From an uncultured Pelagibacteraceae bacterium (GTDB lineage Bacteria; Pseudomonadota; Alphaproteobacteria; Pelagibacterales; Pelagibacteraceae): a stretch of DNA of 64,000 nucleotides. The notes beneath the pieces were generated by a model. That model saw only the letters and a list, made by a program, of their open reading frames with translations. It made no database searches and had not been told where the DNA came from. The position numbers were made by a program, and so were the translations under genes. Location: the NCBI GenBank assembly GCA_902588835.1, contig CACIQQ010000001.1, positions 62,001 through 126,000 on the forward strand, written 5' to 3'. Shown one piece after another: positions 26,691-28,479 of the stretch (its first letter is position 1; each line of letters begins with the position of its first letter).

Positions 26691-27245
26691 TTATTTCTCT
26701 AGTATAAAAATTCCTAATTCAGAAAACAAATTCTGAAATTTTAAATTTTTTAAATTAATCTTAATATTTCTTTGCTTGCAATAATTTTCAAAATCCTTAA
26801 TTGTGCACATATGCAAGTTTGGAGTATTATACCATTCGTTAGGTAAATTTTCTGTAACCGGCATTGTGCCTTTTAAAAGTAAATGTAGCCTTACTTTCCA
26901 GTGTCCAAAATTAGGAATTGATACAATTGCTTTTTTTCCAATCCTTAGTAATTCATTCAATACATTTTCTGGATCTAAGAAAGCTTGTAAAGTTTGACTT
27001 AGAATTACAAAATCAAAAGAGTTATCTGGAAATTGCCTTAAATCTTTTTCTGCATCACCTTCAATAACAGTTAAACCTTTTTCAACACACTTTTGAACAT
27101 TTGATTTTGATAATTCAATTCCCCTTATATCTTTACTGATATTCTCAGTTATATATTTCATTAATTCGCCATTCCCACACCCTACATCTAAAATCTTGGA
27201 GTTTTTTGTCACTAAGTTTGCGATATTATAAAATTCTTTTTTCAT
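26691..27245 (-). CDS. metW: Methionine biosynthesis protein MetW (methyltransferase fold)
   Basis: DVGCGNGELMKY; translationally coupled to metX. Confidence 0.92.
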   Translation of the reverse strand: MKKEFYNIANLVTKNSKILDVGCGNGELMKYITENISKDIRGIELSKSNVQKCVEKGLTVIEGDAEKDLRQFPDNSFDFVILSQTLQAFLDPENVLNELLRIGKKAIVSIPNFGHWKVRLHLLLKGTMPVTENLPNEWYNTPNLHMCTIKDFENYCKQRNIKINLKNLKFQNLFSELGIFILEK

Positions 27246-28363
27246 TAAATTTTCTCATAAGATTTGTTTAAAAAATTCCTCACAGTGTTGAGGAAGTCTG
27301 GAACATTAAGTAAAAAAGAGTCGTGTCCTTTATCAGATGTAATTTCAACAAACCCAACGTCTTTACCAATAGCATTAAGTGCTATCACTATTTCTCTATT
27401 TTCAGATGTTGGATAGAGCCAGTCTGATGTAAAAGATATGATAAAAAATCTTGTGTCACTTTTCTCAAACGCTTTTGATAAATTGCCCCCGAACTTCTTT
27501 GTTAAGTCAAAATAATCCATAGCTCTTGTGATATATAAATAGCTATTTGCATCAAACCTATCCACAAAAACTGAGCCTTGATATCTGAGATAACTTTCTA
27601 TTTGAAAGTCAGCATCAAAGCTGAATTTTAAATCATCTCTTTCTTGAAGTTTCCTACCAAATTTTTCTTGAAGACCAGCTTTAGATAAATAAGTTATATG
27701 TGCTGCCATTCTTGCAACAGCAAGCCCCTTATCAGGCTGTTTATTTTGCTCTTCATAAAATCCATCCTGCCAATTATTATCTGCCATTATTGATTGCCTT
27801 CCTAGTTCATTTAGAGCAATATTTTGAGCAGAATGACTTGCTGTACATGCTATTGGAACAGCAGTGTGAGCCTTATTTGGAAAATTAGATACAAACTGAA
27901 GGACTTGCATTCCCCCCATGGATCCACCGATCACACTAAATAATTTTTCAATTTTAAAATATTCTAAAAGGTTATATTGAGCGTTAACCATATCATTTAT
28001 TGTAATTACAGGAAAATTAGTTCCGTAAGGTTTTTTTGTTTTCGGATTTATATCACTTGGTCCAAAAGAACCCATACAGCCACCAATAACATTAGCTGCG
28101 ATTACAAAGTATTTATCTGTATCAATAGCTTTACCAGGGCCAAGGGCATAGTTCCACCAACCGTCTTTCTTAGTAATTGGATTTGTTCCTGAAGCAAACT
28201 GGTCTCCTGTGAGTGCATGAAAAACTAATATAGCATTATCTTTTTTATCATTTAATTTTCCATATGTTTCATAAGCCAAAGGAAAATCACTGATTGTCTG
28301 ACCACAATCTAGTTTCAATGGTTTTTTTACCAATAAGGTTTTTATTTTATCTTTTTCACTCAT
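27245..28363 (-). CDS. metX: Homoserine O-acyltransferase
   Basis: VIGGSMGGMQVLQF nucleophile elbow, ALTGDQ; SAM-II riboswitch immediately upstream. Confidence 0.95.
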   Translation of the reverse strand: MSEKDKIKTLLVKKPLKLDCGQTISDFPLAYETYGKLNDKKDNAILVFHALTGDQFASGTNPITKKDGWWNYALGPGKAIDTDKYFVIAANVIGGCMGSFGPSDINPKTKKPYGTNFPVITINDMVNAQYNLLEYFKIEKLFSVIGGSMGGMQVLQFVSNFPNKAHTAVPIACTASHSAQNIALNELGRQSIMADNNWQDGFYEEQNKQPDKGLAVARMAAHITYLSKAGLQEKFGRKLQERDDLKFSFDADFQIESYLRYQGSVFVDRFDANSYLYITRAMDYFDLTKKFGGNLSKAFEKSDTRFFIISFTSDWLYPTSENREIVIALNAIGKDVGFVEITSDKGHDSFLLNVPDFLNTVRNFLNKSYEKI

Positions 28364-28395
28364 AGTTTTTTTTGTGAATTGTGAGGAAAAAAAAA

Positions 28396-28447
28396 CTTAT
28401 TTAGCGGTTTTTTTAAAGCGCTCGCAATTCAGTTAAATCAGCGCAAA
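28396..28447 (-). ncRNA. SAM-II riboswitch (metX leader)
   Basis: Reverse strand reads TTTTGCGCTGATTTAACTGAATTGCGAGCGCTTTAAAAAAACCGCTAAATAAG: P1 GCGCT/AGCGC, conserved GATTTAACTG and ATTGC-AGCGC, and 3' GCTAAA pseudoknot strand pairing with ATTTA. Confidence 0.93.
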
Positions 28448-28450
28448 ATT

Positions 28451-28479
28451 CTTTTACAACATGTTACTATTTATGTCAA
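28451..28479 (-). promoter_or_regulatory. Predicted sigma70-like promoter for metX-metW
   Basis: On the minus strand: TTGACA (28479-28474), 17-nt spacer, TAAAAG (28456-28451). Confidence 0.55.

Follow-up and report, generated by a model that had tools for sequence, protein, structure and literature searches.

How can a SAM-II riboswitch, which responds to S-adenosylmethionine (SAM), control its gene when it is followed directly by a run of U residues, with neither a terminator hairpin nor a Shine-Dalgarno (SD) sequence in the leader? This question is raised by the leader of metX in a 64,000-nucleotide stretch of DNA from an uncultured Pelagibacteraceae bacterium (contig CACIQQ010000001.1, positions 62,001 to 126,000), the whole of which is called the window below. 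The favoured answer, given a probability of about 0.45, is that the pseudoknot itself stops transcription at the U-run when SAM is bound, while a longer hairpin would lock the mRNA that has been read through.

The metX leaders used for comparison were taken from named genome contigs and species genomes. For the genus of the window, Pelagibacter (g1), 150 leaders were parsed and 126 of these were distinct; species sampling was even, but phylogenetically nested. The tree analysis included 73 leaders, and folding energies were calculated without pseudoknots, SAM or salt. The elements of the window leader around the pseudoknot are the following.

28418 to 28444, minus strand: helix P1, loop L1 and the 5' strand of helix P2 within the loop, with P1 formed by GCGCU (28444-28440) and AGCGC (28422-28418); nearly invariant in the genus
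28426 to 28434, minus strand: 5' strand of P2, AACUGAAUU, from a pairing model built by analogy with the crystallised SAM-II sequence
28396 to 28405, minus strand: 3' strand of P2, GCUAAAUAAG, AAG included, from alignment with the crystallised SAM-II sequence
28387 to 28395, minus strand: U9 tract immediately following P2; a T5-9 run occurs in all 126 distinct leaders

Alignment with the crystallised SAM-II sequence (PMC8494917) places AAG (28398-28396) at the end of P2, with the pairs C28432-G28396 and U28431-A28397, and therefore the U-run begins without any spacer after P2; its first two U residues can even extend the helix. An earlier note on this DNA had read the same letters, GCTAAAT followed by AAG and T9, but had ended the 3' pseudoknot strand at GCTAAAT and so left AAG outside P2. 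The usual junction in the genus is GCTAAA, then TAAG, AAAG, ATAG or CAAG, and then T. On the metX tree the five interior U residues show 0 changes, and the spacer ahead of the ATG averages 11 changes per site. One refuting condition named in the earlier note, a T-run not conserved beside the aptamer, did not hold in the comparison across the genus (T5-9 in 126/126).

A folding search for a hidden terminator nested before the U-run was negative: 99 of the 126 genus leaders have no hairpin there (best -3.9 kcal/mol). Of the features of an intrinsic terminator, the metX leader has the U-run and lacks the GC-rich hairpin directly before it. The best hairpins at this place in relatives, and in the genus's own bhmT SAM-II (L185, L187), reach -9 to -14 kcal/mol. 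Five genera of the same family (g2, g3, g4, g6 and g8) carry a classic terminator after the metX aptamer, e.g. GCCCAG-TTTAG-CTGGGC-T9, and TTTAGCTG of this sister-genus terminator is complementary to (C)AGCTAAA of the aptamer. Family f2 has a different GC hairpin with T9 after the metX aptamer. In g7, g9 and g12 an SD-like purine run is situated inside P2, and no such terminator was matched. Judged from these sequences, the Pelagibacter metX leaders have kept the U-run at the aptamer edge and lost the hairpin. Termination is likely the ancestral mode, since a GC hairpin with T9 and a strand complementary to GCTAAA occupies the equivalent place in sister genera, as a complete terminator-antiterminator, and also in the bhmT SAM-II of Pelagibacter. 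To this extent the termination reading proposed in the earlier note is strengthened; it had missed the anti-aptamer strand and the second fold described below.

Two side observations concern SAM-II elements on other genes. The second SAM-II of the genus, before bhmT in L185, keeps its classic terminator (AACCACCGC..GGTGGTT T9; L185 and L187), and terminator-type and hairpin-less SAM-II platforms appear by their anatomy to coexist within one genus. In the g5 genomes examined (L193, L194) no SAM-II was seen ahead of metX; the SAM-II there precedes a methyltransferase-like gene similar to metW, and after it come an AT-rich hairpin and a T-run.

Past the U-run, a second conserved element was found, which could compete for the aptamer.

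28421 to 28430, minus strand: aptamer segment GAAUUGCGAG, which pairs with the anti-aptamer strand (pairing and fold comparison)
28408 to 28414, minus strand: A-run of loop L3, predicted partner of the U-run in an alternative hairpin (minimum free energy folds)
28376 to 28385, minus strand: anti-aptamer strand CUCACAAUUC, complementary to GAAUUGCGAG with one mismatch

Across the genus, CTCNCAATTC lies within a few bases past the U-run and is complementary to GAATTGCGAG of the aptamer, i.e. the 5' strand of P2 together with the start of the 3' strand of P1. The pattern GAATTGCGAGCGC-N16-26-T5-N0-14-CAATTC is present in 242/271 genus genomes, almost always once, and in 0/126 genomes of other genera, while its reversed control gave 0 matches. 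Among 38 aligned leaders, 99.1% of cells of the anti-aptamer strand are paired, compared with 26-58% when it is slid; the corresponding values are 100% for P1 and 88% for P2, against 22-53% for the whole structure slid. On the metX tree the post-U strand carries 1.3 changes per site and the spacer next to it 11.2. Of the 13 changes inferred for the anti-aptamer strand, 8 are at its single unpaired site, as expected from pairing. Formal covariation was impossible for this first arm, both sides being nearly invariant, and the change counts on the tree were used instead. Duplex energy is nearly constant across length variants (about -8 to -9.5 kcal/mol); in the variant CTCGCATAATTC the mismatch is turned into a C-G pair and a UA bulge arises. 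Two other roles of this strand were considered and rejected: the anti-aptamer helix is not followed by a U-run in the window and could not serve as a terminator, and a free CUCACAAUUC finds no complementary GAATTG in the first codons with which to mask the metX start.

Near the ATG a second arm, TCAGC, TTAGC, TTGGC or TCGGC, is present in 48 of 101 distinct spacers, with 1.4% expected from shuffles, and all four forms are able to pair with GCUGA of the aptamer. Examples between CTCNCAATTC and the ATG were noted in g1 spacers, GGCGC being among the variants; other leaders have AAATCA or TAAATC against TGATTT or GATTTA of the aptamer. The type of arm changes at least 15 times on the metX tree.

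Folding without SAM or pseudoknots largely keeps P1 until the CTCACAATTC strand is free and the polymerase is near the start codon; from this point the anti-aptamer helix dominates. Its probability is 0.99 for the window, and the median is 1.00 when the 126 leaders are folded as far as the ATG. The folds predict that, within the anti-aptamer hairpin, the U-run is paired with the A-run of L3, and that 6-10 nt are free before the ATG where the second arm exists. In these models an anti-aptamer hairpin can form from the first arm, the A-run:U-run pairing and often the second arm.

Four points favour SAM-dependent termination: a terminator as the likely ancestral state, a leader without SD, a P2 that lies far from the ATG, and a U-run fixed in place. 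The absence of a hairpin before the U-run in 99 of 126 leaders leaves only P2 to act, and occlusion of the ribosome site by P2 is unavailable, since an SD is missing and about 32 nt separate the end of P2 from the ATG. Aptamer, terminator and promoter would then be compressed into one metX-metW SAM-II riboswitch, with the polymerase starting at P1 or within 1-2 nt of it. At high SAM the bound pseudoknot would close P2 at the edge of the U-run and stand in for the terminator hairpin, so that transcription would end at the U-run (OFF). At low SAM the closure of P2 would be too slow and the polymerase would continue; about 20-25 nt later the CUCNCAAUUC strand would exit the polymerase and pair with GAAUUGCGAG of the aptamer. 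Together with the pairing of A-run and U-run, and for most of the genus also the arm against GCUGA, this would turn the leader into a single long 5' hairpin that abolishes the aptamer, makes the choice final and possibly protects the read-through mRNA. The most far-reaching claim, a genus-wide, transcription-level OFF switch by direct occlusion, in which the ligand-bound pseudoknot replaces the terminator hairpin and releases the polymerase without a stem-loop while the later strand makes the choice irreversible, is put forward somewhat more tentatively than the favoured answer.

Several points weigh against this reading. P2 is weak, with one G-C pair and the rest A-U or unpaired, and its closure would be needed inside the exit channel; a 2024 review regarded direct ligand control of a terminator as unlikely on kinetic grounds (PMC10907184). 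The U-run may be kept for pairing with the A-run in the alternative hairpin instead of for termination. T-runs of at least 7 abound in the window, which has 30% G+C, and a T9 by itself is unremarkable; it is the fixed place of the U-run, not T9 itself, that exceeds chance. The anti-aptamer strand exits too late for the decision at the U-run, and the model therefore gives it the separate role of finalising the ON state. The probability of the anti-aptamer helix drops to 0.24-0.6 when more of the window coding sequence is added, and the second arm is absent from the window and its nearest relatives. Finally, the portion of the HTCC1062 sulfur-limitation study consulted (PMC5069961) names metX only as a carrier of SAM-II, and no metX entry was found in it.

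The serious rival is a switch at the mRNA level, which is considered somewhat less likely than the favoured answer. The leader would always be transcribed, SAM would select the pseudoknot or the long anti-aptamer hairpin, and the U-run would be kept as a pairing partner. In the pseudoknot state the U-run and the 3' leader would be single-stranded, which would expose them to RNase E-type cleavage or to a change in ribosome loading, while in the hairpin state the U-run would be paired and the 5' end protected. Such a switch gives a role to each conserved part, the post-U strand and the covarying second arm among them, agrees with the predicted pairing of the U-run to the L3 A-run, and has a parallel in the reported effect of SAM-II on mRNA stability in Sinorhizobium (PMC9373788). 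However, a search for co-variation of A-run and U-run lengths gave only a weak correlation (r 0.27), terminators are used at the equivalent place in the sister genera, and if the 3' leader were freed at high SAM, translation would be promoted, contrary to feedback control unless decay dominates.

Less probable by a clear step is a U-run that acts as a programmed pause and gives SAM time to bind, with the pseudoknot or the anti-aptamer helix setting an output that is read at translation or by Rho, without release of the polymerase. T-rich non-template DNA is a NusG pause signal in Bacillus (PMC12288461), and the anti-aptamer strand does emerge right after completion of the aptamer; yet this explanation has no known readout, no C-rich unstructured region past the U-run, and a motif that is not established for SAR11. 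A SAM-II switch of the ordinary translational kind, in which the U-run and the strand after it would be products of AT-rich drift, is very improbable: SAM-II is often described as occluding the ribosome site (PMC10907184) and T-runs abound in this genome by the window statistics, but P2 and the region ahead of the ATG contain no SD, the post-U strand changes far less than the neighbouring spacer, and the anti-aptamer motif is near-universal in the genus and absent from other genera.

The termination reading presupposes that the leader contains a SAM-II aptamer, for which the following match was obtained.

28454 to 28380, minus strand: SAM-II (SAM_alpha) aptamer ahead of metX-metW; covariance search with RF00521, 30.1 bits, E 3.6e-5

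The match covers the full model length, searched in 301 bases, at 30.1 bits against a curated cut-off of 36; that of RF01726 reaches 29.9 bits against 44. Both are below cut-off, and an Rfam scan at the curated cut-offs reported nothing for the leader. Many members of the order score below the RF00521 cut-off, and f2 metX leaders of like architecture score 37-46; it is the cut-off, not the fold, that keeps the window leader out. The riboswitch named in the earlier note is accordingly recovered by E-value, under the curated cut-off. The conserved core GAUUU ... UUGC ... GCUAAA is present, the P1 stem and the H-type pseudoknot of P2 are supported by the pairing counts given above, and the gene context is that of a methionine/SAM gene, metX-metW; the window aptamer probably binds SAM. 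At pair 4-9 of P2 most leaders of the genus have U-A, where sister genera have C-G. No SAM-V match was found in the leader at E<=10. As a second SAM-II, the genome of the window offered only matches at E 0.08 or worse, the best of which (L002) looks like coding sequence. In several genera a variant resembling SAM-II (AGTCCTGATTTAGAAAATAACTCTACTTGCTGGGAC...GCTAAAGGAGGCAAATG), with an SD inside P2, was observed directly ahead of small open reading frames (e.g. MKIIIQSIKNYFKSKKDRGLEPVFFEKIGDQ...), at nine loci that score roughly 22-28 bits with RF00521.

The promoter and the genes of the locus are arranged as follows.

28474 to 28479, minus strand: -35 hexamer TTGACA; present in 126/126 distinct genus leaders, with 0 changes on the metX tree
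28451 to 28456, minus strand: -10-like hexamer TAAAAG; genus forms include TACAAA, TAAAAG and TAAAAC
27245 to 28363, minus strand: metX, homoserine O-acetyltransferase (NCBIfam NF001209, E 1.7e-154), with its ATG at 28363
26691 to 27245, minus strand: metW (TIGR02081, E 1.2e-68), overlapping the end of metX by 1 base

The two hexamers are 17 nt apart and the first G of P1 (28444) lies 7 nt past the -10, a spacing from which the transcription start site is expected near 28444-28445. TTGACA-17-TANNNN was found in 126/126 distinct genus leaders, and the fusion of promoter and aptamer described in the earlier note is therefore general in the genus; its letters for the promoter, the first P1 G and the T9 (28395-28387) were all correct, and inspection agreed with it that no SD-like purine run precedes the metX ATG. 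A consensus promoter scan of the window did not pick up this promoter because TAAAAG is a poor -10. The minus-strand order is promoter, GCGCTGATTTAACTGAATTGCGAGCGC...GCTAAATAAG, T9, CCTCACAATTC, 12 nt and the ATG. The genes metX and metW presumably form an operon, and hisC is located upstream of the metX leader in divergent orientation. Elsewhere in the window, T8 at 42389-42382 (minus strand) follows a -8.2 kcal/mol hairpin (AATTTGCATAGCTGTTATGCAGATT) and represents the clearest ordinary terminator among the intergenic T-runs. A near-consensus promoter a few nt ahead of P1 is a general SAM-II trait (Corbino 2005, PMC1273637), terminators after many SAM-II aptamers have been published (PMC1273637; PMC2258182), and so has SAM-II on Pelagibacter metX (PMC2704228: SAR11_0217; PMC5069961). 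The identity of the aptamer, the position of the promoter next to P1 and the general occurrence of terminators with SAM-II are thus already known, and the comparative findings are the new part.

Pelagibacter is among the most abundant organisms of the ocean and has few transcription factors, and it relies on riboswitches for much of its sulfur control. Should a pseudoknot closed by its ligand prove able to end transcription without a hairpin, it would break the rule by which terminators are predicted and provide the case which the 2024 review thought unlikely. The sister genera offer a natural before/after series, terminator and antiterminator against pseudoknot and U-run, which makes the question testable.

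The closest known systems are SAM-II riboswitches with an intrinsic terminator (RF00521: SAR11 sister genera, Pelagibacter bhmT, Sinorhizobium metZ), which share the aptamer, gene class, promoter position and U-run past P2. They possess a GC-rich hairpin and an antiterminator strand, whereas Pelagibacter metX has lost the hairpin and has its U-run directly against P2. The crystallised Sargasso Sea metX SAM-II (2QWY) has the same fold, a very similar core and, like the window, a SAR11 origin. Its sequence (PMC8494917) matches 52/52 upstream of metX in two g4 genomes (L258 and L261), where it is followed directly by GATGCCCAGTTTAGCTGGGCTTTTTTTTTGGATG, a terminator hairpin with T9 and an aptamer strand capable of antitermination, and where its supposed SD lies about 30 nt before the ATG. 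It has been described as occluding the ribosome site, while a classic terminator is present in its native g4 context; in the window both SD and hairpin are missing. The anatomy makes the textbook translational SAM-II a candidate transcription attenuator, and its native context bears on whether it is translational at all. In the SAM-II/SAM-V tandem of bhmT, sequence past SAM-II masks the aptamer in the full-length RNA, as is proposed for metX, and this masking is a measured precedent (PMC11508383); metX lacks such a hairpin and a SAM-V match. The HMP-PP (thiS) riboswitch (PMC6478431) resembles metX in that aptamer and terminator are merged into one compact unit. In thiS, however, a classic stem is opened by the ligand (ON switch), while in metX, which has no stem, a pseudoknot would be closed by the ligand (OFF switch).
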